64,000 bases of DNA. It comes from Liolophura sinensis. Taxonomy: Eukaryota; Mollusca; Polyplacophora; Chitonida; Chitonidae. The notes under the pieces are model-generated. The model made no database searches. It was not told the origin of the DNA and worked only from the letters and a program-made list of their open reading frames with translations. This document shows positions 2,885 to 63,860 of this stretch, in pieces (within the stretch, counting starts at the first letter, position 1; every line of letters starts with the position of its first letter). Position numbers and translations under genes: made by a program. The stretch spans positions 53,288,046 to 53,352,045 of the forward strand of contig NC_088302.1 in the NCBI RefSeq assembly GCF_032854445.1, read 5' to 3'.

Positions 2885-4090
2885 TCATACAGATCGCCTT
2901 AGGTGTCGACAAACAGGAAGAAAACAGCGATTTTCATTGAGAATGTGTTGTCTGTATTCGGTTAGCAGCGATCTTAAATCTGTTGTCTGACCAGTGTATT
3001 GTTTGCCACACCAGTGGCATATAAGTGCGTATAGGGGGCCTACAACGTATTTAGGATCACAGGACATGTTCATTTTAACAGTGTATAAGGAGTCAGTTGT
3101 GGTAAATTTAACACTCGGACCTTCCAGTATGTGGATGCACGTCTCACACCTGGGTTTGTTCCATATAGTTACGTGTGCATTACATTGGTTTTCTGAAAAA
3201 TGGACCCTCGTTAACATTTTCATCAGGTTTGGGCTCTGTCGTTTACTGTTAATAATTGTAGATTTGGAAATGATATCTTTCATTTTAGCACTATCGGTCA
3301 GCATAGGTAACGTATTCAGTATTAGGGGGAATACATCATTATTGTTGGGATTGTAAGTAGATATAAAGGGGATAATATTTTGATTGGCAGTTTTTGGTGA
3401 GATTTGTCTTAACACGATTATAGGGTGAGAAAATGCTTTTCTTATTCCAACCTCTGCGAGTCTCATTAGATATCCCCTACAGAGCAAGACAGACTTTAAT
3501 TCAATAAGTCGCTCATTCCGAATGGTTTTGTTGATGATAATAGTACACACACGTCTAGCAAGTGAATAAGGGATATTTTCCTGTGTGTGGAGCTATAATG
3601 TGGAGTGATTGGGGCTAAAATGAATACAGAGCTGGGTATTGGGTTGTTTCCGAAGTGTAATTATCTTTAGTTCAAACGCGTCCAGATTTAACAAGCATAT
3701 AATATAAGCCAAGAATGGAATACTGATATCATTTGCATCAACTGTATAAGAAATTTGAGGATGCAGTGCATTAAGGATATCAAATTGTGATTTGATTGTA
3801 CCATTTTTTGATGGCCAAAATACAAAACAGTCATCTAAAATTCGCTGCCGCTGTTTTTTAAAGATTTACCAAACTCAGTTTCGTATTTGGAAGAAATAGT
3901 TGCATACAATTTAATTTCAAGGAACAACATCACCAATGTTGGGTATGCCGCATGGGGCTATTTGGGTTCCGTTGACAGTACCTAAAATTTGCATGTATAG
4001 TATTCATCACTAAAGCAAAATGAATTATTGTTAGAAATAAATTTAACACAATCCATGATGACCAAACTTTGTTAGATGTTAAAGAATCTT
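2885..4090 (-). pseudogene. Degraded Penelope-like retroelement (RT plus GIY-YIG endonuclease)
   Basis: Read on the minus strand, about 4070-3700 gives a broken reverse transcriptase palm: a GT..GTQIAP-like block (about 3980-3940), then LDDCFVFW (about 3840-3800) carrying the DD catalytic pair, then LNALHP..SYTVD..IPFLAY. A 221-codon open stretch (3550-2885) continues with KSVLLCRGY, FISTYNPNNNDVFP, SKRQSPNLMKMLTR and a C-terminal GIY-YIG-like module with CHWCGKQYTGQT. This order, RT followed by a C-terminal GIY-YIG, is the signature of Penelope-like elements. Several stops and frameshifts interrupt the RT part. In the endonuclease the helix after YTGQT reads LRSLLTEYRQHI, so the usual Arg and His positions look substituted. 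It is almost certainly inactive. The 5' end of the element is not visible. Confidence 0.75.
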
Positions 4091-16600: not shown

Positions 16601-18107
16601 AATTAAGAAATAGTCATTCCAAAAACTTTTGATGAAGTCTGTGATTCAGCTGCAGACCATGAACGTTTGTGTGATTCAGCTGCAGACCATGAACGTTTGT
16701 GTGATTCAGCTGCACACCATGAACATTTGTGTGATTCAGCTGCACACCATGAACGTTTGTGTGATTCCGCTGTAGACCATGAACGTTTGTGTGATTCATC
16801 TGCAGAAAATGAACGTTTGTGTGATTCAACTGCAGACTATGAATGTTTGTGTGAGTCAGCTGCCGTCCATGTACATTTGTGTGATTCAGCTGCAGTCCAT
16901 GTCCATTTGTGTGATTCAGCTGCAGTCCATGTACATTTGTGTGATTCAGCTGCAGTTCATGTACATTTGTGTGATTCAACTGCAGACTATGAATGTTTGT
17001 GTGAGTCAGCTGCAGACCATGAACGTTTGTGTGATTCAGCTGCTGTCCATGTACATTTGTGTGCTTCAGCGGCAGTCCATGTACATTTGTGTGCTTCAGC
17101 TGCAGACATGTACATTTGTGTGATTCAGCTGCAGTTCATGTACATTTGTGTGATTCAGGGGCAGTCCATGTACATTTGTGTGATTCAGCTGCAGACCATG
17201 TACATTTGTGTGATTCAGGTGCAGTCCATGTACATTTGTGTGATTCAGCTTCAGTTCATGTCCATTTGTGTGATTCAGCTGCAGACCATGTACATTTGTG
17301 TGATTCAGGTGCAGTTCATGTACATTTGTGTGATTCAGCTACAGTTCATGAATAGTTTTTCGATTCAGCAGCAGTTACTGTACATTTGTGTGGTTCAGCT
17401 GCAATTCATGAATATTTGTGTGATTCAGCTGCAGTCCATGTACAGTTGTGTGATTCAGCTGCCGTCCATGTACATTTGTGTGATTCAGCTGCAGTTCCTG
17501 TACAGTTGTGTGATTCAGCTGCCGTCCATGTGCATTTGTGTGATTCAGCTGCAGTCCATGTGCATTTGTGTGATTCAGCTGCAGACCGTGTACATTTGTG
17601 TGATTCAGGTGCAGTTCATGTACATTTGTGTGATTCAGCTACAGTTCATGAACATTTGTGTGATTCAGCTTCAGTTCATGTACATTTGTGTGATTCAGTT
17701 GCAGTTCATGTACATTGGGTGATTCAACTGCAGACTATGAATGTTTGTGTGAGTCAGCTGCCGTCCATGTACATTTGTGTGATTCAGGTGCAGTCCATGA
17801 AAATTTGTGTCATTCAGCTGCAGTTCATGTACATTTGTGTGATTCAGTTGCCGTCCATGTACATTTGTGTCATTCAGCTGCCATCCACATAAAATTGTGT
17901 GATTCAGCTGCAGTTCATGTGCATTTGTGTGATTCAGCTGCAGTCCATGTACATTTGTGTGATTCAGCTGTGGTTGTTGTTGTTGCAGGTATTCAAGACG
18001 TTACCCTGGAGACGATCAGCAGCTGTCAGAGCGCTGACTCACACGCTGAACCAACACAGGAATATTTACCCGTCAGCAAGAAAAAGAAAAAAGTGGTCAA
18101 TTTCTGA
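13608..18107 (+). CDS. ZCCHC9: Zinc finger CCHC domain-containing protein 9
   Basis: Five coding exons join in frame: 13608-13943, 14883-15027, 15445-15537, 16356-16427, 17989-18107; 254 aa against about 270 in vertebrates. All introns are GT-AG. Residues 1-112 are a basic, lysine/arginine-rich region starting MTRFARGGSANKKKPYEGS, as in the family. Four CX2CX4HX4C zinc knuckles follow: CYNCREAGHHLADC and CFKCGSTEHSSGKC (exon 2), CFICGEKGHISKKC (exon 3), CKQCGSVEHFRRDC (exon 4). The C-terminus is a lysine-rich tail, KKKKKVVNF. The family is nucleolar, binds RNA and is reported to affect MAPK-dependent transcription; that role is from family knowledge. The ATG is the first in the exon and matches the family N-terminus. 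All zinc ligands are present. Introns 1 and 4 carry minisatellites of 24 and 30 bp. Confidence 0.94.
14167..14664. repeat. 24-bp minisatellite in ZCCHC9 intron 1
   Basis: Unit 'gactgaagtggagtgctc' plus aggtgt, about 20 copies. The 24-bp length keeps it open in one frame on each strand (VTEVECSG-like on +, TSVTPEHS-like on -), giving spurious 145-147 codon frames. It lies between coding exons 1 and 2 and is removed by splicing. Confidence 0.95.
16467..16517 (+). mobile_element. Very short SINE tail insertion (family C) in ZCCHC9 intron 4
   Basis: A 51-bp fragment, 'gatatggctgaaatattgcc' followed by aatgtgccataat and a CATT-repeat tail, is flanked by identical 12-bp direct repeats CTATTATTTCAT (16455-16466 and 16518-16529). 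This is a retroposition event truncated to the element's last 50 bases. A reverse-oriented relative lies at about 22686-22735. Confidence 0.75.
16637..17970. repeat. 30-bp minisatellite in ZCCHC9 intron 4
   Basis: Unit 'tgtgtgattcagctgcag' followed by tccatgtacatt, about 44 copies at a nearly constant 30-bp period (one 29-bp unit near 17101-17129 shifts the phase). Because the unit length is a multiple of three and lacks stops in two frames, open frames of up to 351 codons appear; they are repeat artefacts inside an intron. The array ends in a partial unit (gattcagctg) only 18 nt before exon 5. Confidence 0.96.
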
Positions 18108-31000: not shown

Positions 31001-34000
31001 ACTAAGCTCTCACACAAAACATACATTTCCAAGAAAAAAAGTCAAACCTTTCTCTTTCTATTAGTTGTCTTCAGCCCAGCTGCCTCAGTCACTTTGTTTA
31101 TGGCCTCTCTGTAATCAGAAATTGTAGGTGACAATACAATGCTGGTAAAACTGGTGTGACTGCTTCCATTGCAGTCACTGACAGCTCTGAAGCCCAGCAA
31201 CACAGCCTACAATCACATACATGTACTGTACATTCTGCTTAGAATCATATCCCCCACCTGTGGTAATGTACTGCAGCATGACCCGTGTCAATGTACTGCA
31301 GCATGACCCGTGTCAATGTACTGCAGCATGACCCGTGTCAATGCACTGTAGCATGACCCGTGTCAATGTACTGCAGCATGACCCATGGTAATGTACTGCA
31401 GCATGACCCATGTCAATGTACTGCAGCATGACCCATGGTAATGTACTGCAGCATGACCCGTGTCAATGTATTGCAGCATGACCAGTGTTAATGTATTGCA
31501 GCATGACCCGTGTCAATGCACTGTAGCATGACCCGTGTCAATGTACTGCAGCATGACCCGTGTCAATGTATTGCTGCATAACCCATGTCAATGTACTGCA
31601 GCATAACCCGTGTCAATGTACTGCAGCATAACCCGTGTCAATGTACTGCAGCATGACCCATGGTAATGTACTGTAGCATGACCCGTGTCAATATACTGCA
31701 GCATAACCCATGTCATTGTACTGCAGCATAACCCGTGTCAATACACTGCAGCATAACCCATGTCAATGTATTGTAGCATGACCCGTGTCAATGTACTGCT
31801 GCATAACCCGTGTCAATGTACTGCAGCATAACCCGTGTCAATGTACTGCAGCATGACCCGTGTCAATGTACTGCAGCATAACCCGTGTCAATGTACTGCA
31901 GCATGACCCGTGGTAATGTATTGCAGCATGACCCGTGTCAATGTATTGCAGCATGACCCGTGTTAATGTATTGCAGCATGACCCGTGTCAATGCACTGTA
32001 GCATGACCCGTGTCAATGTACTGCAGCATGACCCGGGTCAATGTACTGCTGCATAACCCATGTCAATGTACTGCAGCATAACCCGTGTCAATGTACTGCA
32101 GCATAACCCGTGTCAATGTACTGCAGCATGACCCATGGTAATGTACTGTAGCATGACCCATGGTAATGTACTGCAGCATAACCCATGTCAATATACTGCA
32201 GCATAACCCATGTCAATTTACTGCAACATAACCCGTGTCAATGTACTGCAGCATAACCCATGTGAATGTACTGCAGCATTACCCATGTCAATGTACTACA
32301 GCATAACCCGTGTCAATGTACTGCAGCATAACCCGTGTCAATGTACTGCAGCATAACCCGTGTCAATGTACTGCAGCATGACCCATGGTAATGTACTGCA
32401 GCATAACCCGTGTCAATATACTGCAGCATAACCCGTGTCAATGTACTGCAGCATAACCTGTGTCAATATACTGCAACATAACCCATGTCAATGTATTGCA
32501 GCATGATCCATGGTAATATACTGCAGCTTGACCCGTGTCAATGTACTGCAGCATGACACGTTTCAAAGTACTGCAGCATAACCCGTGGGGTAATGTATTG
32601 CAGCATGACCCGTGTCAATGTACTGCAGCATGACTCATGGTAATGTACTGCAGCATAACCCGTGTCAATGTACTGCAGCATGACCCATGGTAATGTACTG
32701 TAGCATGACCCATGTCAATGTACTGCAACATGACCCATGTGAATGTACTGCAGCATTACCCATGTCAATGTACTACAGCATAACCCATGTCAATATACTG
32801 CAGCATAATCCATGTCAATATACTGCAGCATAACCCATGTCAATATACTGCAGCATAACCCATGTCAATTTACTGTAGCATAACCCATGTCAATGTCCTG
32901 TAGCATAACCCGTGTCAATATACCGCAGCATAACCTGTGTCAATATACTGCAGCATAACCTGTGTCAATGTATTGTAGCATGACCCGTGTCAATGTACTG
33001 CAGCATAATCCATGTCAATATACTGCAGCATAACCCGTGTCAATATACTGCAACATAACCCGTGTCAATGTACTGTAGCATGACCCGTGTCAATGTACTG
33101 CAGCATGACTCATGGTAATGTACTGCAGCATAACTCGTGTCAATGTACTGCAGCATGACCCATGGTAATGTACTGTAGCATAACTCGTGTCAATGTACTG
33201 CAGCATAACCCATGTCAATGTACTGCAGCATGACCCATGGTAATGTACTGTAGCATAACCCGTGTCAATGTACTGCAGCATGACTCATGGTAATGTACTG
33301 CAGCATAACCCGTGTCAATGTACTGCAGCATGACCCATGGTAATGTACTGCAGCATAACCCATGTCAATATACTGCAGCATAACCCATGTCAATTTACTG
33401 TAGCATAACCCATGTCAATATACTAGAGCATAACCCGTGTCAATATACTGCAGCATAACCTGTGTCAATATACTAGAGCATAACCTGTGTCAATATACTG
33501 CAGCATAACCTATGTCAATGTATTGTAGCATGACCCGTGTCAATGTACTGCAGCATAATCCATGTCAATATACTGCAGCATAACCCGTGTCAATATACTG
33601 CAACATAACCCGTGTCAATGTACTGTAGCATGACCCATGTCAATGTACTGCAGCATGACCCATGGTAATGTACTGCAGCATAACCCGTGTCAATGTACTG
33701 CAGCATGACCCATGGTAATGTACTATAGCATAACCTGTGTCAATGTACTGCAGCATGACCCATGGTAATGTACTGCAGCATAACCCGTGTCAGTGTACTG
33801 CAGCATGACCCATGGTGATGTACTGTAGCATGACCCGTGTCAATGTCCTGCAGCATAATCCATGTCAATATACTGCAGCATGACCCATGTCAATATACTG
33901 CAACATAACCCGTGTCAATGTACTGCAGCATGACCCATGTGAATGTACTGCAGCATTACCCATGTCAATGTACTACAGCATAACCCGTGTCAATATACTG

Positions 34001-36423
34001 CAGCATAACCTGTGTCAATATACTGCAACATAACCCGTGTCAATATACTGCAACATAACCCGTGTCAATGTATTGCAGATGCACATACAGGTATGATGTA
34101 CATGTATGGGTGACATTTTTCAATATGAATTTTACACCACAGTTATAGTTAAAATTTAATTCAATCTGTACATATGACCAGAAATTTAATTCACTGGTAA
34201 ACAAATGCTAGTGGAGGTTAACAGGACTCAGAAACTGACTGATGTCTATTTAAGTTTCAATATTGTGCACTTCACATCATCTCATAAAGTGAAAGCTTAA
34301 ACTTTGTAAACTTCTTCCAAAAGTGCACAAGATACTTTTGAAACATAAATGCTGACAACTACATAAGTAAAGAATTAATACTAGATGGTTAACCTTGAGC
34401 AGTGTGTTCTATCTTGGGATTAGCCATTTTTCTCTGATACAAACAGTGAAAGCATGTTAAGACTATTCTCAATGGGCTTCTAAAAAAATCAGCGTAGTCC
34501 TTGGTATACCTGGCCAGAGCCGTCCTGGTTTCAAAATCAAGGTTCCTCATGGACTCCTTCACCTCCAGACAACCAATGTACTGAGCAAGGAAAATCAGTG
34601 AACATGGTCATACATGATAAAGAACAGCTACATAAATTAACAGTTCATCCATTCGGATAAACTTAAAATTCTATTCTATCACCTGAAACTGACAAAAAAC
34701 TTGTTCACTTGTAGAACACCTCTTCTCTTTCAATAATTTAATCTCTTTTAAAGTTTATTTATTTATTATTTATTATTATTTACTTCATTCAATTTAAAAC
34801 CAAACCAAACTTTAATTTCTCTCTTACATACCAGCACTCAGTTTTATGGGTGGAGGAAATTGGGAGTGCTGGGAGTGAAATTAGGACTGGCAAGTAACTG
34901 ATCAACTTTCTCACCTGTGATATACATTCCCCTGTCCATAGCTAGATCCAAGTGTATGCCTGCAGGTAAAGTAAGTGTATGCCTGCAGAGAAAGTAAGTG
35001 TATGCCTGCAGGTAAAGTAAGTGTATGCCTGCAGAGAAAGTAAGTGTATGCCTGCAGGTAAAGTAAGTGTATGCCTGCAGAGAAAGTAAGTGTATGCCTG
35101 CAGAGAAAGTAAGTGTACGCCTGCAGGTAAAGTCAATGTGTGCCTGCAGGTAAAGTAAGTGTACGCCTGCAGGTAAAGTAAGTGTATGCCTGCAGGTGAA
35201 GTAAGTGTACACCTGCAGGTAAAGTAAGTGTACGCCTGCAGGTAAAGTAAGTGTATGCCTGCAGGTGAAGTAAGTGTACGCCTGCAGGTAAAGTAAGTGT
35301 ATGCCTGCAGGTGAAGTAAGTGTACGCCTGCAGGTAAAGTCAATGTGTGCCTGCAGGTAAAGTAAGTGTATGCCTACAGGTAAAGTAAGTGTATACCTGC
35401 AGGTAAAGTAAGTGTATGCCTGCTGGTAAAATAAGTGTATACCTGCAGGTGATGTAAGTGTACGCCTGCAGGTAAAGTAAGTGTATGACTGCAGCTAATG
35501 TAAGTGTATGCCTGCAAGTTTATGCCTGCAGGTAAAGTAAGTGTATGCCTGCAGGTAAAGCAAATATATGACTGCAGGTGAAGTAAGCGTATGCCTGCAG
35601 GTAAAGTAAGTGTACGCCTGCAGGTAAAGCAAATATATGACTGCAGGTGATGTAAGTGTACGCCTGCTGGTAAAGTAAGTGTACGCCTGCAGGTAAAGTA
35701 AGTGTATGCCTGCAGCTAAAGTAACTGTACGAAAAGTAAGTGTACGCCTGCTGGTAAAGTAAGTGTACGTCTGCAGGTAAGGTAAGTGTATGCCTGCAGG
35801 TAAAGTAAGTATACACCTGCAGGTGAAGTAAGGGTACGCCTACAGGTAAAGTAAGTGTATGCCTGCAGGTAAAGTAAGTGTATGCTTGCTGATAAAGTAA
35901 GTGTACGCCGGCAGGTAAAGTAAGTGTATGACTGCAGCTAAAGTAAGTGTATGCCTGCAAGTGTATGCCTGCAGGTAAAGTAAGTGTATGCCTGCAGGTA
36001 AAACAAATATATGACTGCAGGTGAAGTAAGTGTATGCCTGCAGGTAAAGTAAGTGTACGCCTGCAGGTAAAGTAAGTGTGTGCCTGCAGGTAAAGTAAGT
36101 GTACGCCTGCAGGTAAAGTAAGTGTGTGCCTGCAGGTAAAGTAAGTGTAAGCCTGCAGGTAAAGCAAATGTATGACTGCAGGTAAAGTAAGTGTATGCCT
36201 GCAGGTAAAGCTGTCAGACTACCTGAGGTGGACCCACTACTATCAGGTGTGTGAGACTTACCCGTACTCCATAGCAAACGCCCGCATCTGGGAGAAGCTG
36301 TTCATCTGGGTGAATCCACCCCCGATCAGGTTTATGAATAAAGCTGCCCGTTTTTGTCCAATCAGGGCCTGCCCCTGCTCCCTTTGTCTTGTGCTTTTTG
36401 TACTTCTCCTTCACCGCTGCCAT
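25026..36423 (-). CDS. SHC1: SHC-transforming protein (PTB-CH1-SH2 adaptor)
   Basis: Twelve exons on the minus strand join in frame to 496 aa: 36423-36262, 34580-34510, 31108-31048, 30887-30768, 30360-30307, 29415-29237, 28773-28617, 28198-28069, 27575-27465, 26838-26657, 26037-25906, 25157-25026. The length fits p52 SHC (about 474). Residues about 25-205 form the PTB domain ([65 protein letters not shown]). The CH1 linker carries EYYNDRPG (Tyr235/236), the pair that recruits GRB2, a second YxN at TAYDNPE (Tyr307) and AFDMEPF (about 345-351), matching the adaptin-binding DMKPF. SH2 spans about 400-490: WFHGAI, FLVRES with Arg423 for phosphotyrosine, [24 protein letters not shown] links phosphorylated receptors to GRB2-SOS-Ras at the membrane. 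The ATG lies 1 nt after a 3' splice site, so an upstream non-coding exon exists. The symbol marks family; orthology to SHC1 versus other SHCs is not resolvable outside vertebrates. Confidence 0.94.
27112..27153 (-). mobile_element. Minimal SINE tail insertion (family B) in an SHC intron
   Basis: A 42-bp piece, a TGAG repeat plus 'gcttggggtttaacgtcata' and cttaa, equals the reversed 3' tail of the SINEs at 60077-60351 and 60532-60894. Flanks are near-identical direct repeats, CACCCCAAATTAGAG (27097-27111) and CACCCAAATTAGAG (27154-27167). Confidence 0.75.
29757..30262. repeat. 71-bp tandem repeat in SHC intron 5, 7 copies
   Basis: Unit includes 'gtgcacatttatggatcaaa', 'cttcaggtgaaatacaaat' and 'ttccatgactgtcatgtat'. 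Five central copies are nearly identical; the copy nearest the exon at 30307-30360 is the most diverged. It ends about 45 nt from that exon's donor. Confidence 0.95.
31256..34079. repeat. 25-bp minisatellite in SHC intron 2
   Basis: Unit 'aatgtactgcagcatgac' followed by ccgtgtc, about 113 copies over 2.8 kb, the largest array in the window. Variants (taaccc for tgaccc, atgg for gtgtc, tattg for tactg) are scattered and partly organised in blocks. Each unit has a PstI-type CTGCAG. On the transcribed (minus) strand each unit reads like a weak 3' splice site, gctgcag|tacattg. Confidence 0.96.
34951..36210. repeat. 23-bp minisatellite in SHC intron 1
   Basis: Unit 'gtgtatgcctgcaggtaaa' followed by gtaa, about 54 copies. 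Minus-strand frames stay open for up to 215 codons through the repeat and are artefacts. On the transcribed strand each unit reads cttactttacctgcag|g, a good match to a 3' splice site. The array begins about 51 nt after the donor of SHC coding exon 1. Confidence 0.96.
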
Positions 36424-52999: not shown

Positions 53000-55900
53000 A
53001 TGGCCCATAACAAAATTTATTACTCAGACAAATATTGTGATGATTACTATGAATATAGGTGAGTATGACATATCATCTAATATTAGCTGTTAAAAAGTTA
53101 TCTTCAGTCTAACCACGTAATGTTCTATCTTGTGGTTTGATCCCGCGCGATAGCAAGCAAGTTTTGACTTGTCTACCACTTTATTGATGTCTAGCTATAA
53201 AGTGCCTATATTGTTTTTAATTTTAGCTGACAATTAGGACTTGTAATTAAGGAAAGTTTATTTGATTGTATCGATTTCTGGCAAAGGTTTAAACAAAATA
53301 GACAAAATTTGATCATGCTATCTGAGCTGTTGACGTTCTCACCCATTAAGATTTGACCATACAGTGGTTTTTAATTCTACTCTGCTGTTAGTTTCGGGCC
53401 CGTGTTCAAATGTGCATATTAAATGGAGATGAACCTTCAAACAACATCAAGTGTCTCATGCAAAATACCAGCTGATACGTTTACCTCCCCGAGCAATATG
53501 ATTTCATTTTGTTTTTGCCTACAAATAGGGCCTATGAGAGATACACGAATAGCCCTGGAGGACAAGCTCTAGGGCCTCGCGTAGTAGCTGGGTCCCGTTT
53601 AGCCTGTAAGGCTGAATAATAAGATTTTGGAAAACAATCAGTTACCAATGTACCTCACCCATCCTGCAGCTCCTTTATAATGGTTAGGGTCCCAGGGCAC
53701 CAGACTTAAAATCCATAGATGTTGATCATCCTAAAAGTAAATATCCATCCATAAATAACCATCTTCTACACGGCGCGCATGTGCGGCCAGGCAGCTGGAT
53801 AGGACTAGTTTGCAAGAATTGATTCACGGTGTGCTAAATTTTGCTACAGCTTCGTATACAGAGAACCCTGCAGTTTAAAAATGGATATTTGATACGACAC
53901 TCCCCATGTGTAAAGTGCGCTAATCTCCACAGTTTTCTCCCAAATTCACACTTATCACATAATTACAAATTTACCATAATAAAACAATCAATCTGTTGCG
54001 AAGTGCATGTACTAAAATCATTATGATTAAAACTGAGGAAATCACAGACTGTTGGTGGTAGGAACATAGACTAACTGCTCAGTGAAGGGTGAGCTTGTTT
54101 ATTACATTGAACTGTCGGTATAATCCCAGGGGTTAATAGAAGTCGTCTGGAAGTCTCGATTGAATAAAAATAACTGGATATTTATTCAGTTTGAGGTTTT
54201 TTGAAGAAATATTCAAAATTTTACTCAGCATGAACATATCCAAAGTTCTGAGGAAATCTTCATGACACTCTGTATTGATTAGATTTTTGGAAGGGGAAGG
54301 GCGTATGAAATCAAACATGACACATACTAAGCTTCTTCGGTCTCTACCAAATCTGTCTTCACAAATAATTTGACCTACTTCGGCTTCAGATGGTTCTGTT
54401 TTTGACAATAGCATAGGTCAAGTGACTGCATGTGAGCGCACACCTTTCGACTGGTTTCCTCCCCCTGGTGTCAGATGGTGCCAATATTTTCAGCTCCTTT
54501 GAAGGCAAGCAGGCAGTTTGCCTCCAGGTTTTGTTTTCTGGAGTCTAAAGTTTGATAAAAAGCTTATAGCAGCAAAATTAAAACTTTTTTTGCTATGGAC
54601 ATTTACCAACAACATCGGATCGCTAGACTGAACATGGAGAAATGTGCCACACAGGACTTCTGCCAATCAGAATGTTAAGATCCAGCATTATTCGTCGTGG
54701 AAAAAGTGACAATTCATTGATGCATAAACTAGCAGTGTAGTTTATCTCCCTTAACATGTAGCCTCGTTATTTGATTAGTGTTTTATGCCATACTCAAGAA
54801 TATTTCACTTATATGACAACGGCCAGCATTATGGTGAGAGGAAACCAGGCAGAGCCCAGGAGGAAGCCCACAACCATCTGCAGGTTGCTGACAGACCTTC
54901 CCTCGTAAGTCTTGAGAGGAAGCCAGCATGAGCTGGACTTGCACTCACAGCGACCGCATTGGTGAGAGGCTTCTGGGTCATTACGCTGCGCTAACCGACT
55001 GAGCCACGGAGGTCCCCCTCGTTACTTAAAGATCATTATTGTTAATACTCCATGTTGTAAATCACTGTGTGGGTCTCCTAATTTTCTCATTACTGGTAGC
55101 TGATTATTGCGGTCAATTTCATGTGATCAGTACCCTGTCAAATCAGACTTCGCTTTGAACTGCTTTTGTTGATTGAAATCTTCATTTGTTTTGACAGGTA
55201 AGTATAATGCCTCAAGAGATTTTAGATAATGCGCAGAACATTCGTCTGGATACAGTATTCAGATTTGTTTCTTGTATATATGTTGCATAATTTTTGATTT
55301 TCTCAAAAGTTTTTTTGTTAAGTGTGCCGATTATCAGTTTACAGCATCAACAAGGAGGCCAGCTTGAGTCCATATGTAGGCAGTGATAATTATAGCAATC
55401 TGTGAAGTATTCGTACAAAAATATTCAATTTTTGTCTCTCAAATGGACAGTCAAAACTCAAAAAAAAAAAAAAAAAATTATTTGTAAGAAGAAAAGTGCC
55501 CAAAAAGTGGCAGTGGGTATGTGGAAAAATGACTTCTATGAACCCCTGAATTCAAGACCACCCCTGATGCTATCCCGCAGCGCCCACTCAGTAACAACCA
55601 CGATCAACACAGTGAATCCTGGGATACACTAGTCCAAGGTCATTTACTGTAGGGTCTATTTTTATAGTTGATGAGCAATATGGAAGTGGATAAAATACAA
55701 CAAGCAATCATTTGTGTGACAAATTATGCATCTTTGTGAAGACCTAGGCTCAGTTTGAGGTCATTTTTATTTTGAGCTCTTGAAGTGAGGTGAATGTATG
55801 AACATTTTGACCTAATGCGTATGTGGCTGTTTGATCAGCTATGGCAAACATTTCTTGAATTCATACGGCTTGCCATTTACCTCTGGCACCCGCACTGACA

Positions 55901-58900
55901 GCCATCACACAATTCTTGAGTATGGCACTAGTTAGAAAAAACAAGCAAATAATATTTGTTGGAATTACCGGTACACATAAAAAAATACTTGCTCTTTTGC
56001 TTGCAGACACGTTATGCTACCAAAGGAAATAGCCAAATTGGTTCCAAAAAAGACATTAATGTCAGAGGCCGAATGGCGGAGGATAGGAGTACAACAGAGT
56101 CAGGGCTGGGTGCATTATATGATACATGAACCAGGTACGTTGTAGAGAAGGGTGCCTGGTTTATAAGGCTGGGTGCATTATATGATACATGAACCAGGTA
56201 CGTTGTAGAGAAGGGCGCCTGGTCTGTAAGGCTGGGTGCATTATATGATATATGAACCAGGTACGTTGTAGAGAAGGGTGCCAGGTCTATATGGCTGGGT
56301 GCATTATATGATACATGAACCAGGTACGTTGTAGAGAAGGGTGCATGGTCTGTAAGGATTGGTGTATTATATGATACATGAACCAGGTACGTTGTAGAGA
56401 AGGGTGTCTGGTCTATAAGGCTGGGTGCATTATATGGTACATGAACCAGGTACGTTGTAGAGAAGGGTGCCTGGTCTATAAGGCTGGGTGTATTATATGA
56501 TACATGAACCAGGAACGTTGTAGAGAAGGGTGCCTGGTCTATAAGGCTGGGTGCATTATATGGTACATGAACCAGGTACATTGTAGAGAAGGATGCCTGG
56601 TCTATATGGCTGGGTGCATTATATGATACATGAACCAGGTACGTTGTAGAGAAGGGTGCATGGTCTGTAAGGATTGGTGTATTATATGATACATGAACCA
56701 GGTACGTTGTAGAGAAGGGTGCCTGGTCTATAAGGCTGGGTGCATTATATGATACATGAACCAGGTACGTTGTAGAGAAGGGTGCCTGGTCTATAAGGCT
56801 GGGTGTATTATATGATACATGAACCAGGAACGTTGTAGAGAAGGATGCCTGGTCTATAAGGCTGGGTGCATTATATGGTACATGAACCAGGTACATTGTA
56901 GAGAAGGATGCCTGGTCTATAAGGCTGGGTGCATTATATGATACATGAACCAGGTACCTTGTAGAGAAGGGCGCCTGGTCTGTAAGGCTGGGTGCATTAT
57001 ATGATACATGAACCAGGTACGTTGTAGAGAAGGGTGCCAGGTCTATATGGCTGGGTGCATTATATGATACATGAACCAGGTACGTTGTAGAGAAGGGTGC
57101 CTGGTCTATAAGGCTGGGTGTATTATATGATACATGGGCCAGGTACGTTGTAGAGAAGGGTGCCTGGTCTATAAGGCTGGGTGCATTATATGATACATGG
57201 GCCAGGTAAGTTGTAGAGAAGAGTGCATGGTCTGTAAGGCTGGGTGCATTATATGATACATGGGCCAGGTACGTTGTAGAGAAGAGTGCATGGTCTGTAA
57301 GGCTGGGTGCATTATATGATACATGGGCCAGGTAAGTTGTAGAGAAGAGTGCATGGTCTGTAAGGCTGGGTGCATTATATGATACATGGGCCAGGTAAGT
57401 TGTAGAGAAGGGTGCCTGGTCTGTAAGGCTGGGTGTATTATATGATACATGAACCAGGTACGTTGTAGAGAAGGGTGCCAGGTCTATATGGCTGGGTGCA
57501 TTATATGATACATGAACCAGGTACGTTGTAGAGAAGGGTGCCTGGTCTGTAAGGATTGGTGTATTATATGATACATGAACCAGGTACGTTGTAGAGAAGG
57601 GTGCATGGTCTGTAAGGATTGGTGTATTATATGATACATGAACCAGGAACGTTGTAGAGAAGGGTGCCTGGTCTATAAGGCTGGGTGCATTATATGATAC
57701 ATGGGCCAGGTAAGTTGTAGAGAAGAGTGCATGGTCTATAAGGCTGGGTGTATTATATGATACATGAACCAGGTACGTTGTAGAGAAGGGTGCCAGGTCT
57801 ATATGGCTGGGTGCATTATATGATACATGAACCAGGTACGTTGTAGAGAAGGGTGCCTGGTCTATAAGGCTGGGTGTATTATATGATACATGGGCCAGGT
57901 ACGTTGTAGAGAAGGGTGCCTGGTCTATAAGGCTGGGTGCATTATATGATACATGGGCCAGGTAAGTTGTAGAGAAGAGTGCATGGTCTGTAAGGCTGGG
58001 TGCATTATATGATACATGGGCCAGGTAAGTTGTAGAGAAGGGTGCCTGGTCTATAAGGCTGGGTGTATTATATGATACATGGGCCAGGTACGTTGTAGAG
58101 AAGAGTGCATGGTCTGTAAGGCTGGGTGTATTATATGATACATGGGCCAGGTAAGTTGTAGAGAAGAGTGCCTGGTCTGTAAGGCTGGGTGCATTATATG
58201 ATACATGAACCAGGTACGTTGTAGAGAAGGGTGCCAGGTCTATAAGGCTGGGTGTATTATATGATACATGGGCCAGGTAAGTTGTAGAGAAGGGTGCCTG
58301 GTCTATAAGGCTGGGTGTATTATATGATACATGAACCAGGTAAGTTGTAGAGAAGAGTGCATGGTCTGTAAGGATTGGTGTATTATATGATACATGAACC
58401 AGGAACGTTGTAGAGAAGGGTGCCTGATCTATAAGGCTGGGTGCATTATATGGTACATGAACCAGGTAAGTTGTAGAGAAGAGTGCATGGTCTGTAAGGA
58501 TTGGTGTATTATATGGTACATGGGCCAGGTAAGTTGTAGAGAAAGGGACATGGTCTATAAGGCTGGGTGCATTATATGATACATGGGCCAGGTAAGTTGT
58601 AGAGAAGGGTGCCTGGTCTATAAGGCTGGGTGCATTATATGATACATGGGCCAGGTACGTTGTAGAGAAGGGTGTCTGGTCTATAAGGCTGGGTGCATTA
58701 TATGATACATGAACCAGGTAAGTTGTAGAGAAGAGTGCATGGTCTGTAAGGATTGGTGTATTACTATAAAGTACTTATTATTCGCTGGAATTTATTTTCG
58801 CAGATTTTCTCCAAAAATATGTTTGCAGGATTTACTTTTCGCATGTTTAAGAGAATATTGAAAAAAATCTTCAAATTGTCAAAGATATAATATTGCCGAA

Positions 58901-61900
58901 ATTATTCAAGCACGTCAGACAGGTATCATCTTGGGTAGCTTTAATCCTCCTTTATTTTCTGTGGTGGCACTAATCCTCGTGGTCTGGATCAGAGAGTGAG
59001 ACAATGGGGGATGGATAATCAGTACGTAACAAGATTACTTTCGCAACTACTGTGAGCAGTACTCAGACAGGTGTCACTCCTTTTTGAACCATTCATGAGT
59101 ACTTTTAAACACCTGGCAAAGTGACCTGTCACCTTTGAGCAGTTCAACGGAAAACATGAATTCACCATTATCGGCTCCAGTCACTCACTATTTATCAAGC
59201 AACATGGTAAGTTTTGCATTGTTTTCAGTTTTAATCGTCCTCTGTGGCAGGTCAGAAACCGCAAACATTGCTGTAGCACTCAAATGGCCATTGTGTTGTT
59301 GCACACACTTACACTTACCAGTTGGTTAGAAGCTCATTCTGTAGGGCTGGGTGTATTATACAGGGTTTGCACCGATCAGGGAAAATCTGGAATATCAGGA
59401 AGAACAGAATTGCCTGTTCCAGACACAGGAATGTCAGGGAATTTGAAATTTTAATGGTTTTGTCCTCGAATATCAGGGAAAATTGATGTTGGGTCTGCTG
59501 TAGCAAGTTTCATATGTTAGACGGCTCTAAATTCCTTGGTGTTGGCTGTTATAAAATATCAAATTCAAACATACTGGTACTCAAAATTTTACTGGTACTC
59601 AAAAGTTGTTTCAGAATGCCAATGTACAACACTTGCAGGTAACAGTATAGATTTGAATAGGGTTTCCCAAGGTTACCTAAGGGGGATAACTCCTCACTAT
59701 ACTTGCATGCCATCATTGCCATGTGTTTATATCCGTCAGTTGATCAGCATCAAACCGCGAAGTCATTCCAACTCGCAAAAGCTAGGGACATTGACTCAGT
59801 GTTTCAGAAATGATAGGAAGGAAAACTAAGCCTTTACCTAACAAACTGTAACTGTGAATATTGAAGGTTGACCTTGTTCTGTCGTAGACAGCAGTGACCA
59901 CAACAACATTAGAGGTGGAGATTTGGTGGTGTCTGAAATCAATCCAGTCCCACTGGCCCTACAACTCTTTGGCTGATACAGGTACATACTTGTGGCCAGT
60001 TGTTTCTGTTAGTCACTTTTGTTATCATTGTTAATCTCTCATTTGGGCCAACACGATCATAACACTCGTAAAAGGTCTGGCTCGAGTCTCACCTAAGACT
60101 TTAAAAGAGGAAGTTGTGGCTTCCTCGCTTGGCGTTCAGCATAGAGGGGATAGTGCAACGACTGGTTGACCCGTATCATCAAAAATGCTCGGGTGGGACC
60201 TTCGGTAAGTCATCTCAGTGAAGCAGCACTAGATAAAAGAGCAGCGGAAATCCGTCCTGCAACAAGGCGGTACATTACATACACCCTAAGGATTCCTTCA
60301 TCATCATATGACTGAAAAATTGTTGAGCACGACATTAAACCGCAATCACTCACTCGTAAAAGGTTTACTGTTTTTTTTTTTTTGCTTTTTAACTATGGAG
60401 ATTTGTCTTACCTTTAAAGTTAATATGATAAAAAATAAACTAGTCAGTATTTTCCAGCTATAAAGTGTGCTTTATAGGCCTATGTGTATTACCATATATT
60501 TTTGATATTTAATAGTAAATTATCGATTCAAGGACCAGCCCGGATAGCACAGTTGGTAGAGCGTCCGCTTCGGGACCGGTAGATCCAGGATCAATCCTTG
60601 ATCGAGTCACACCTAAGACTTTAAAAGAGGAAGTTGTAACTTCCTCGCTTGGCGTTCAGCAGGAAGGGGATAGTGCAACGACTGGTTGACCCGTATCAGT
60701 ATAATGGCTCGGGCGGGGCTGCTTACTTGCCTTCGGTAAGTCGTCTCAGTGAAGCAGCACTAAATAAAAGAGCGGTGGAAATCCGTCCTGCAACAAAGAG
60801 GCACATTGCACGTACATGCACCCTAATGATTCCTTCGTCGTCATATGACTGGAAAATTGTTGAGTACAACGTTAAACCCCAAGCACTCACTCACTCGATT
60901 CAATTTTTTGGTTTTTACATTAGTTTTATGTTCCCATATGGTTTCATTGCCTTGTAATTCCAGTGTAGGGAGGGAAACTGTGCATACATCACTACATTTG
61001 GTGACATGCAGCGTTTCGGGGGCCTCAGTGGCTCAGTCGGTTAGCGCGCTAGCGTTGCGTAATGACCCAGGAGCCTCCCACCAATGCAGTCCCTGTGAGT
61101 TCAAGTCCAGCTCATGCTGGCTTCCTCTCCGGTCGTAAGTGGGAAGGTCTGCCAACAACCTGTGGATGGTCGTGGTTTTCCCCCGGCCTGTGCCCGGTTT
61201 CCTCCCACCATAATGCTGGCCGCCGTCGTATAAGTGAAATATTCTTGAGTACGGCATAAAACACCAATCAAATAAATAAATAAATAAATGCCATACAGCA
61301 TTTCAAGAAACATATCACACCACATAATAAGATCATGAAAGTAGTTTTGTTTGATGAAAGCAAAACTATGAAGGCACAAAACAAATAGATGGATGTTCAT
61401 ATTCGTTTTTGGAAAGGCGACATTGTCACCGCTAGATACTTTCTGCATTCTCTGAATTCATGGGATGTGCTACAGCAGAAGAGACCTACATGCATAAGTG
61501 CATGTAACTTATTTTTCCTCTTGTTTGTAGCTGGGATGGATTACTGTGGATTCCCTCCTGTTCGTCTTCAGTGATGAGAATATTAAACAAGTGTTCATGA
61601 ATCCTAGTATATTGTTAGTATTAGTACCACCATGGGGTCTTAGTGACGGTAAGGCTCAGCAGTTTATGATGTTTGTGTGGCCACTTGTCCAGTATAGTGT
61701 TCATTTAAGTGGACTTAAAGTCTGCCACTATATATATTTAGAAAAAATGATATAGGACAGTTATAACAGAAAAATATGTAAAAAAAATTCTGTAAAGTTT
61801 TTAAAGTTGAGAAGATGAAGTTCAGCATGGGGATATGGCACTGACGGACAATTCACTCCAAGCAGCCAAGTTGTAGAAGCCTTTATGAACTTGGCCAGTC

Positions 61901-63860
61901 ACTAGAGCTGAATATGTCATGTGATAATTGGCTGTCACGTCAAAATGTGGTTTCTTACAGTGGATAGACAGATATCAATGCAATAAATTGGATTTTGCGG
62001 TTAGTTTAAGTGTTAAACTTATGCATTTAGGAGCATGGAACTGAGAACGGCTGTGTATACATTAGGCATGATACTGCAGTAACTTGCAGTAAGCTAGCAA
62101 GAAAACCACCTGGGGAGAGTCATTGCTTGAAGACAAATATTTGACTTTGCTTTATTTTTCTTTAGCAAAGTTAGATTTATTACCAGAATATATTTTCCCA
62201 AAATCTGAATGAAAGAGTTTGTTATCAGTGAGAAGGCCCTGCTATGTGGGGTAAAGTCCATGAAGTCCAGCTGGGGGAAATGCTTACACCCATGCAGAAC
62301 GAGGACGAACGGGACCCCTGAAACATTACGCTTGTGTACACCAATAAGCATGTTTAGCATGGCTATTTAAATATAGCAGCTTTGGTAGAACAGACAGGAG
62401 CCATGGGCATATAATTTGTTGAGTATAACATTTAACACTAATCAGTGATACGACTGAAATAATGCTGAAAGCATGGAGAAGCAGTACACAACAATCCAAA
62501 CTTGCTTGTACTTGCACAAACATTCCCACCAAATACCTATTTGAAAGTTTGAATTTAGCCGTTGAGCATCTTCGAATTTTAAAATCTCATTTCTGTGTGA
62601 ACCCTGATTATATGATACATGAGCCAGGTAAGTTGTGGAGATGGGTACATTGTATATAGAGCTGAACCAGGTAAGCTGTAGAGACGGCTACATTGTGTAT
62701 AGAGCTGAACCAGGTAAGCTGTAGAGAAGGGTACAAGATCGGGCTTGGTGTATTATGCAGCGAGAGCTTTCCAGAGAAAAGAACTTTCAAACAAGTATAT
62801 TCGCATTCTGCTGGGCTTGAATTTGGAAAGTGCAAAACAGGCCCATGTCAGTACTGTAATGAGACTGGAATAAGAGGTCATGCAGGATTTCTTCAGTTTT
62901 GTGTCTGGAAGACAGACCCATTCCCTCGGAATAGCTACTTTAAATTCTCCCTCAGGCACACAAAACCCTGGAATAAAGAAAAGTCTTTTCAGTGACCAGT
63001 GGAATATTTGAATCCTTTCACACATTAGTTAAAGCACAAATTAATCTGCACCCTCGTCAAACACTTACTATATCTCCTACATCACCGACAAATTGCGTTT
63101 CGGCATCGTCAAATTTTCTGTTTTAGCATCTATCTGTCAGAGACCGATGACCTAATTGTACGCGGTGATATTCGCATGGAGCACTAATTGCGAAAGCGCT
63201 CCAGCGTAATAGCTAGAATGCATAGGCTTATAGTAGCACGAAAATCTGGTCTACTCGACTACTCTCCGTACGTCAGTAGTTTTGGGTAAGTGCTTTCTAA
63301 AAGTGACGAGAAATCAGCGTTTGATGCGCCCTGGCAGGTCGGATCACGGGTGAGAATGCGTATCGCGCGAAAACAGTCTCTACAAAATGTCATGTATGCG
63401 CCGTGAAGTAAGATGAAAATGTAATCCACGCGACTTTGGCCCACCACACGTAAGTTTTGGCGCATATTTTTGTTCTGCCGACTTGTCCGTCGTAAGGCTC
63501 TGATACAACACAGGAATTTTACTATATACATTGTGAATTACACCTTATCCAAAGACTCTCTCACTCTTCCGACCCCTACCACTGACCCTCAGCCTCAAAC
63601 GGACTCAAAATTTATTTTCTGGCAGAAACCCTGTCATGTCTAGTTGTCAAGTATTCTTGCCAAAACATGTAGCTATGTATTTAGCTATTTTTTAAAACTT
63701 TTTAAGGTTTTCCTGTACATGTGTTAACTTAAAATTCATTTAATGTGCTCAAGCAGTGAACCTAGTAAATGGTAAATTTTACTCTTTTTTTTTTTTTTTT
63801 TCAGAACAACACATCCTGCTATTTAGGCGACCAGTCACAACTCCCCCACCGGAATATTAG
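53000..63860 (+). CDS. CKS1B: Cyclin-dependent kinases regulatory subunit (CKS1)
   Basis: Three exons, 53000-53058, 56007-56134 and 63805-63860, join in frame to 80 aa, the family length. It begins [12 protein letters not shown] and continues [37 protein letters not shown] and ILLFRRP. The anion-binding pocket is intact: Lys11, Arg20, Ser51, Trp54 and Arg71. The protein binds CDKs, docks phosphorylated substrates and, in animals, assists SCF-SKP2. The hinge reads HEPEQH (60-65) where the family has HxPEPH, so the second hinge proline is Gln. The C-terminus is TTPPPEY rather than lysine-rich. The exon 2-3 junction splits the Glu63 codon in the hinge. Intron 2 is 7.67 kb and starts inside a tandem array that duplicates the end of exon 2. 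Reading through the authentic donor would add GTL and stop. The symbol denotes the CKS1/CKS2 family; paralogue assignment is not possible from this alone. Confidence 0.96.
53059..54760 (+). other. CKS1 intron 1, first part
   Basis: No other exon or element recognised. A minus-strand frame of 93 codons (54414-54133) has no recognisable domain. Confidence 0.5.
54771..55016 (-). mobile_element. tRNA-derived SINE (family A) in CKS1 intron 1
   Basis: Near full length on the minus strand: a head with 'cctccgtggctcagtcggtt', a B-box-like 'gagtgcaagtccagctcat', a central part and the tail 'gagtatggcataaaacacta'. Flanking CCTCGTTAT (54762-54770) and CCTCGTTAC (55017-55025) form the target-site duplication. 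Confidence 0.85.
55026..56006 (+). other. CKS1 intron 1, last part
   Basis: No exon recognised. A poly-A run lies near 55459-55476. The exon 2 acceptor is ctcttttgcttgcag ending at 56006. Confidence 0.5.
56104..58765 (+). repeat. 63-bp array made from the CKS1 exon 2 / intron 2 junction, 42 copies
   Basis: The unit is the last 31 nt of CKS1 exon 2 (encoding [10 protein letters not shown]), its 5' splice site and the next 26 intron bases (ttgtagagaagggtgcctgg with short flanks). Starts at 56104, 56167 and 56230 and the last partial start at 58750 give exactly 42 periods of 63 bp with no net indel. The first copy is the real exon end. The donor hexamer varies: GTACGT in most proximal copies, GTAAGT after CAG in about thirteen distal copies, GAACGT (donor lost) in about four. 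Spurious antisense frames run up to 294 codons. Confidence 0.97.
58770..60060 (+). other. CKS1 intron 2, middle part
   Basis: No exon recognised. 59336-59358 (gggctgggtgtattatacag) is an isolated partial copy of the 63-bp unit. 59349-59480 has the style of a dispersed repeat (two occurrences of atcagggaaaa) but was not identified. Confidence 0.5.
60077..60351 (+). mobile_element. 5'-truncated SINE (family B)
   Basis: Matches 60594-60894: 'cacctaagactttaaaagag', 'ttggcgttcagcatagaggg', 'cgactggttgacccgtatca', 'tctcagtgaagcagcacta' and the tail 'acattaaaccgcaatcactc'. A perfect 13-bp direct repeat, ACTCGTAAAAGGT, flanks it (60064-60076 and 60352-60364). The tRNA head is missing. Confidence 0.85.
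60532..60894 (+). mobile_element. Full-length tRNA-derived SINE (family B)
   Basis: The head 'agcccggatagcacagttgg' followed by tagagcgtccgcttcgg is tRNA-like (A box); a B-box-like segment 'gatccaggatcaatccttga' follows; then a conserved body and the tail 'acgttaaaccccaagcactc' plus ACTC repeats. Flanking TCGATTCAA (60523-60531 and 60895-60903) is the target-site duplication. Confidence 0.88.
61018..61291 (+). mobile_element. Full-length tRNA-derived SINE (family A)
   Basis: Best copy of this family in the window. Head 'cctcagtggctcagtcggtt' (A box), B-box-like 'gagttcaagtccagctcat', a body with 'aaggtctgccaacaacctgt' and the tail 'ttgagtacggcataaaacac' followed by TAAA repeats. Flanking CATGCAGCGTTTC (61005-61017) and CATACAGCATTTC (61292-61304) fit an aged target-site duplication with two mismatches. 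Confidence 0.9.
61305..62600 (+). other. CKS1 intron 2, distal part
   Basis: No exon or further element recognised on either strand. Confidence 0.5.
62608..62760 (+). repeat. Detached, shortened copies of the CKS1 junction repeat
   Basis: 'ttatatgatacatgagccag|gtaagttg' is followed by two 43-bp units 'gctgaaccag|gtaagctg', with CAG|GTAAG junctions after 62627, 62670 and 62713, and by a trailing 'cttggtgtattatgcag'. These are diverged relatives of the 63-bp unit, about 3.8 kb from the main array and 1.1 kb before exon 3. Confidence 0.85.
62770..63804 (+). other. CKS1 intron 2, terminal part
   Basis: No other exon recognised. It ends in a strong polypyrimidine tract (T run 63784-63801) and the CAG acceptor before exon 3. 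Confidence 0.6.

Follow-up and report, generated by a model that had tools for sequence, protein, structure and literature searches.

The stretch of DNA analysed here (the window: 64,000 nucleotides, positions 53,288,046 to 53,352,045 of contig NC_088302.1 of the polyplacophoran mollusc Liolophura sinensis) contains a CKS1-type gene, complete and encoded on the plus strand, and the junction between exon 2 and intron 2 of this gene has been multiplied into a long tandem array. Joined together, its three exons give an open frame of 80 residues closed by a stop codon, and the peptide encoded by exons 2 and 3 matches both the Pfam CKS family (E=2.1e-27) and human CKS1 (E=5.9e-28). The second intron has a length of 7670 bases and contains the extra copies of the junction together with two inserted elements, here called element A and element B. 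The features of the locus are as follows.

53000..53058, plus strand: CKS1 exon 1, coding part (19 residues and two bases of the codon for R), donor AG/GTGAGT
56007..56134, plus strand: CKS1 exon 2, 128 bases, the last 31 of which belong to repeat copy 1 as its exon portion
56104..58763, plus strand: junction array of 42 full 63-bp copies and a 14-base partial copy (Tandem Repeats Finder and in-register reading)
56135..56140, plus strand: authentic donor CCAG/GTACGT of copy 1, presumably the one used in splicing
57175..58749, plus strand: copies 18-42, containing all 13 GTAAGT donors
58762..59339, plus strand: element A, a truncated member of a dispersed family, lying within the array and interrupting copy 43
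59344..59360, plus strand: unit start (positions 1-16) surviving past element A, one unit with the sequence from 62607 onward and split from it by element B
59361..62606, plus strand: element B, with ends CAGGGTT...AACCCTG and an apparent target duplication ATTATA, lying within a unit copy
62607..62757, plus strand: distal array remnant of three diverged units with CAGGTAAGT, CAGGTAAGC and CAGGTAAGC, and a last partial unit
63805..63860, plus strand: CKS1 exon 3, with exon 2 the source of the Pfam CKS and human CKS1 matches

Run on the window, Tandem Repeats Finder reports a repeat at 56104-58763 with a period of 63, 42.2 copies, 92% matches, 0% indels and a score of 4284; together with in-register reading this confirms a preliminary description of the locus, which had placed the CKS1 exon 2/donor junction in 42 tandem 63-bp copies free of indels. 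Each unit consists of 31 exon bases (GGCTGGGTGCATTATATGATACATGAACCAG) followed by 32 intron bases. Copy 1 is the real junction and encodes conserved CKS residues, and copies 2-42 all lie downstream of donor 1, that is, on the intron side, with the coding exon intact. Over the 42 copies the donor hexamers are GTACGT (22, including copy 1), GTAAGT (13), GTACAT (two), GTACCT (one) and GAACGT (four), and the earlier counts of about thirteen GTAAGT copies and about four lacking GT thus proved exact on recount, GT being kept in 38 of 42. The first GTAAGT donor lies 1071 bases past donor 1, copies 1-17 holding none. Read on past donor 1, the frame encodes G-T-L and then stops, as had been described, and one unit equals 21 codons. 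A whole-genome search with the junction unit, in which the best candidates were scored, placed all 43 scored matches at the CKS1 locus, one of them being the remnant from 62607. A 920-residue open frame on the minus strand of the array (56015-58774) was considered as coding and rejected: a 63-bp unit tends to give open frames, at least one of the six being open in 91.5% of 2000 shuffled units, and the frame is therefore its expected product.

Contig C1 carries a second CKS gene (91875816-91875959; L009 1501-1644 and L011), which has an intron at the same place. Its junction carries no array, and the arrays within the surrounding 10 kb do not touch that junction. What appears to be exon 1 of this gene sits just upstream of a two-copy 276-bp repeat.

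The copies of the CKS1 array bear the marks of repeat turnover. Thirty-four of the 42 are distinct, the mean pairwise difference is 8.3%, and blocks have been duplicated, copies 4-8 recurring as 9-13 and copies 15-18 as 27-30. The unit has 22 variable columns out of 63, of which three fall among the nine columns of the donor nonamer and 19 among the 54 elsewhere (Fisher p=1.0), and the donor accounts for four of 24 variants, which is roughly its share of the unit. There is accordingly no special conservation of the donor. Since the donor columns are not spared, the GTAAGT copies are best read as a single variant that was multiplied within the array and not as the product of repeated selection for strong donors.

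The array also extends further than was first described. The preliminary description let it end at 58765, and it is indeed cut there; what cuts it is an insertion, beyond which unit sequence is found again at 59344-59360 and at 62607-62757. Element A belongs to a family with 548 first-look candidates genome-wide, of which 40 were scored; it has a terminal branch of 0.098 substitutions per site and a mean Kimura two-parameter distance of 0.149 to nine relatives. It ends here at 59339 and is truncated, because several relatives run further. Three relatives of element B match up to 62606-62608. The flanks of element B share ATTATA and, when rejoined, form one continuous unit with an alignment score of 119, compared with a maximum of 26 in 300 shuffles; the array therefore formerly extended to the present position 62757. 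It is old and predates both elements, and the remnant beyond them is diverged, with a spacing of 43 bp. Element B itself has nested repeats, two copies 84% alike at 60082-60355 and 60602-60892.

The same architecture occurs at other junctions of this genome, and the CKS1 case is not unique here. Two further cases are on the donor side: at L034 the end of an anillin exon and its donor are repeated about six times (Pfam E=0.0026, below the cut-off; PDB E=0.0061; next anillin exon at C9:24274195), and at L020, completed by L065, the end of an open exon is repeated with GTGAGT. On the acceptor side, arrays at L021 402-725 and L022 1-789 have the real junction as their last copy. An alpha-mannosidase match at L022 fits by reading, and the junction at L021, whose exon we take to be MST-kinase-like, was read by eye. 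These four (L020, L021, L022 and L034) are junction arrays among 19 merged arrays in the 18 loci of elements A and B, a share with an interval of 6-46% that may be an undercount, since further edges were scanned only where long open frames were present (148 frames, 47 arrays).

A pattern search widens the picture. Three exact CAGGTAAGT motifs with gaps of 45-75 bases were matched 437 times, compared with 106 times for the motif in reverse. Among the first 100 matches listed, which span C1 completely and C2 as far as 22.3 Mb and were grouped by eye, we counted 16 distinct donor arrays against six for the reversed motif (binomial p=0.052; the latter count becomes seven if two neighbouring places on C1 are counted separately), so that donor enrichment within arrays is no more than suggestive. 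An apparent coding-exon end opens eight of the 16 donor arrays (L066, L069, L071, L073, L074, L075, L080 and L082). Four of these eight have database support, namely from DNA-PKcs (5.7e-16), GH31 (2.9e-13), SMAD MH2 (3.6e-11) and fumarylacetoacetase (1.9e-9; PDB), the fumarylacetoacetase exon reaching 0.011 in Pfam, below the cut-off. The exons at L065, L066, L069, L074 and L075 have no Pfam or PDB match, and such calls rest on the open frame between acceptor and donor; Pfam likewise has no match for a frame at L068 that was regarded as a probable negative. In nine of 11 donor junctions (the eight arrays plus CKS1, anillin and L065) a stop codon follows within 21 codons of donor 1, and there donor 1 is therefore needed for the known protein. 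An acceptor pattern gave 29 matches against two for its reverse, counts taken from the pattern alone.

Several places stand beside these as separate observations. An array with TTTTGCAGG acceptors at C1:4957909-4958323 is followed by a possibly coding stretch, and at L017 2774-2890 a coding-like exon (KMAEMAEVINARENKLVQLSKENNDLLEANSILR) has a donor GTAAGT after which, within a few bases, an array of 50-bp units follows. Two further weak Pfam matches are to NifU and KH_DEAH11.

All this takes place in DNA that is rich in minisatellites. Tandem repeats make up 24.6% of the window, where 17 merged arrays (period at least 10, score at least 100) occupy about a quarter of the sequence, 17.8% of the 10 kb to its right, 14.5% of 61 kb around copies of the elements and 15.1% of the 10 kb surrounding the second CKS gene. 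In 110 kb around 30 kinase matches, a set biased to long open frames, the figure is 1.4%, and the five arrays at these 30 loci include none over the kinase match. By a rough estimate from typical numbers (some 400,000 junctions in 609 Mb and units of about 60 bases), a few per cent of arrays would be expected to lie over a junction by chance, and on this estimate blind seeding with little counter-selection would suffice, the share seen being of the chance order or above.

Several arrays of the window have more than 40 copies (among them 16640-17970, 31265-34078 and 34950-36210), and the last of these is built of a 23-bp unit that includes CTGCAGGTAAAGT, close to a donor; its edges showed no recognisable coding exon. 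Among five long open reading frames of the window that were compared with Pfam, four had no match and the fifth had three weak matches below the cut-off. A minus-strand frame of 235 residues at 2888-3592 has a weak match to Pfam OSTMP1 (E=0.0027, below the cut-off), and ARAGORN found no tRNA. Elsewhere, C8:37880506-37891931 holds eight consecutive hemocyanin domains on the same contig, one of which matches hemocyanin entries including KLH1. KLH1 is a limpet protein, and eight-domain hemocyanin marks molluscs.

We consider it very probable that the CKS1 array is a junction minisatellite of the type named mirages in amphioxus, which is spliced out with the intron by way of donor 1 and has no selected function. 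A short segment over the junction of exon 2 and intron 2 would have been tandemly duplicated, and unequal exchange and block duplication, the usual processes in minisatellites, would then have enlarged and homogenised the array. The transcript would be spliced from donor 1, beside the 128-base exon, to exon 3, and the other 41 copies and both insertions would leave with the 7.67-kb intron. The choice of the first donor is probably made by exon definition. Use of a later donor, or retention of the array, would meet the in-frame stop three codons past donor 1, and the faulty transcripts would become potential targets of nonsense-mediated decay; because of that stop, the CKS1 protein depends on first-donor choice. 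Among the options raised in the preliminary description, toleration of the array through use of the first copy is thus the supported one, with the use of donor 1 something that we, too, infer from sequence.

Beyond this dependence on the use of donor 1, a number of observations weigh against such a reading. Across the genome, eight of the 16 donor arrays, whose 5' edges were all inspected, showed no coding exon there, four of the eight junction arrays lack a database match, and L069 would have to use a GC donor. In two of the 11 donor junctions, GH31 and fumarylacetoacetase, the frame stays open and no early stop forbids later donors. Within the CKS1 array 37 other GT donors are present and 13 are stronger than the real one; in the suggested check of U1 pairing, the 13 GTAAGT copies pair better than copy 1 (-12.1 vs -7.9 kcal/mol in a duplex calculation against the U1 end). 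The restriction of GTAAGT to copies beyond 17 could also be explained by selection against strong decoys near the junction. Exon-derived columns are variable in seven of 31 cases and intron-derived ones in 15 of 32 (p=0.064), and this lower variability leaves room for weak constraint. Finally, minisatellites at exon-intron boundaries of human segmental duplications are reported with 27 intron modifications, of which the majority have an alternative transcript, and with novel introns (PMC2812944). Since some human boundary minisatellites alter splicing, the silence of such repeats is not to be assumed.

The alternative that survives best, and one that we think improbable, is that the array controls CKS1 dose, later donors or a retained array leading to the stop and so to degradation, possibly in dependence on array length. 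The G-T-L-stop past donor 1, the unit of 21 codons and the stronger donors downstream would serve such a mechanism, and the altered splicing at human boundary minisatellites (PMC2812944) offers a precedent; the case for it is one of analogy only. The first GTAAGT donor would, however, yield an exon of about 1.2 kb, given its distance from donor 1, the architecture recurs in unrelated genes, and the amphioxus cases are reported as normally spliced (PMC3087553, PMC3902484).

Less probable still is the proposal of the preliminary description that the field of donors is a selected U1-binding platform, which would guard a long intron from premature cleavage and polyadenylation (telescripting). Retention of GT in 38 of 42 copies, the 13 full consensus sites and the length of intron 2, 7670 bases, would agree with it. 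The donor columns nevertheless vary like the rest of the unit (3/9 vs 19/54, p=1.0), four copies have lost GT and the same type of array is found at unrelated junctions, and nothing in this analysis supports the proposal.

An assembly artefact or mis-assembled repeat would be called to mind by one amphioxus case in which, according to its authors, the genome draft was aberrantly assembled (PMC3087553), and we give this explanation very little credence: 34 of 42 copies are distinct, the block duplications have two different lags, two elements lie inside the array with remnants beyond them, and the gene is on a 58-Mb contig. Introner units can carry splice sites, and the array might in principle derive from a dispersed mobile or introner-like unit that had carried the junction by chance, an origin that we reject as extremely improbable with all 43 scored matches at one locus, CKS1, and conserved CKS residues encoded in copy 1.

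The CKS1 array is, then, probably a tolerated by-product of repeat turnover, and the findings suggest that junction arrays follow from minisatellite-rich DNA in general. They also extend to a mollusc the junction arrays known from amphioxus and human genes. We would go further only tentatively, and rate the following as possible, if rather doubtful: that minisatellites seed the donors and acceptors of genes about as freely as other DNA, leaving a large standing set of decoy arrays, and that the spliceosome keeps to the outermost site (the first donor, the last acceptor) irrespective of decoy number and complementarity to U1. If true, new introns and alternative exons could readily arise from such arrays. 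Studies of how one of several donors is chosen usually rely on a handful of engineered copies. This genome offers series of nearly identical donors formed in nature, as many as 42 in succession at CKS1, in conserved genes, and in most such cases only the first donor gives the known protein, a natural test of position versus exon definition versus U1 strength.

The preliminary description knew of no exon-intron junction expanded in this way, and here it must be corrected, since amphioxus mirages, the PGBD5 repeats and human boundary minisatellites are all on record (PMC3087553, PMC3902484, PMC2812944). Mirages are minisatellite-like tandem duplications of exon-intron boundaries, at donors and at acceptors, with units of 10-160 bp, found in Adh3 and in the globin genes BflGb6 and BflGb9, with BflGb6 haplotypes of 6 and 3 units; many but not all copies keep AG/GT, and the repeats show concerted evolution and, at Adh3, somatic instability (PMC3087553). 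A mirage in amphioxus troponin C and similar repeats over splice sites of PGBD5 are described as well (PMC3902484). Reverse-transcription PCR suggests that mirages leave regular splicing undisturbed (PMC3087553), and undisturbed splicing is reported in PMC3902484 too.

The CKS1 array shares much with them. Its unit spans the authentic exon end and splice site (31 exon and 32 intron bases) and, at 63 bp, falls within the reported range of 10-160 bp; the extra copies lie on the intron side with the coding exon intact; a splice signal is present in many copies and not in all (38 of 42 with GT); and concerted evolution has left out the edge, to judge from the block duplications and the diverged distal remnant. 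The differences are that mirages are known from cephalochordates and have been examined at the RNA level, whereas the molluscan array is known from genomic sequence alone, and that BflGb6 has 6 and 3 units where CKS1 has 42, with two insertions inside.

The human boundary repeats, on average of 30-bp units in four copies (PMC2812944), are likewise minisatellites at an exon-intron boundary; at CKS1, unlike there, the coding exons are intact and we see no sign of a new intron. Among molluscs, the literature matches listed, which cover papers open without subscription, contain no junction array. The abalone TSSK1-like gene has a 27-bp array in intron 3 that varies between individuals (PMC6905558), and is thus akin to CKS1 as a tandem array in a mollusc intron; in contrast to that of CKS1, the abalone array is not said, in the available text, to include an exon end or splice site. 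An earthworm metallothionein gene has intronic minisatellites, and the available text names no junction array there. In intron gain by tandem genomic duplication (PMC3087553), as at CKS1, the duplicated segment holds splice-site sequence; there the duplication makes a new intron, whereas at CKS1 an existing intron absorbs the copies.
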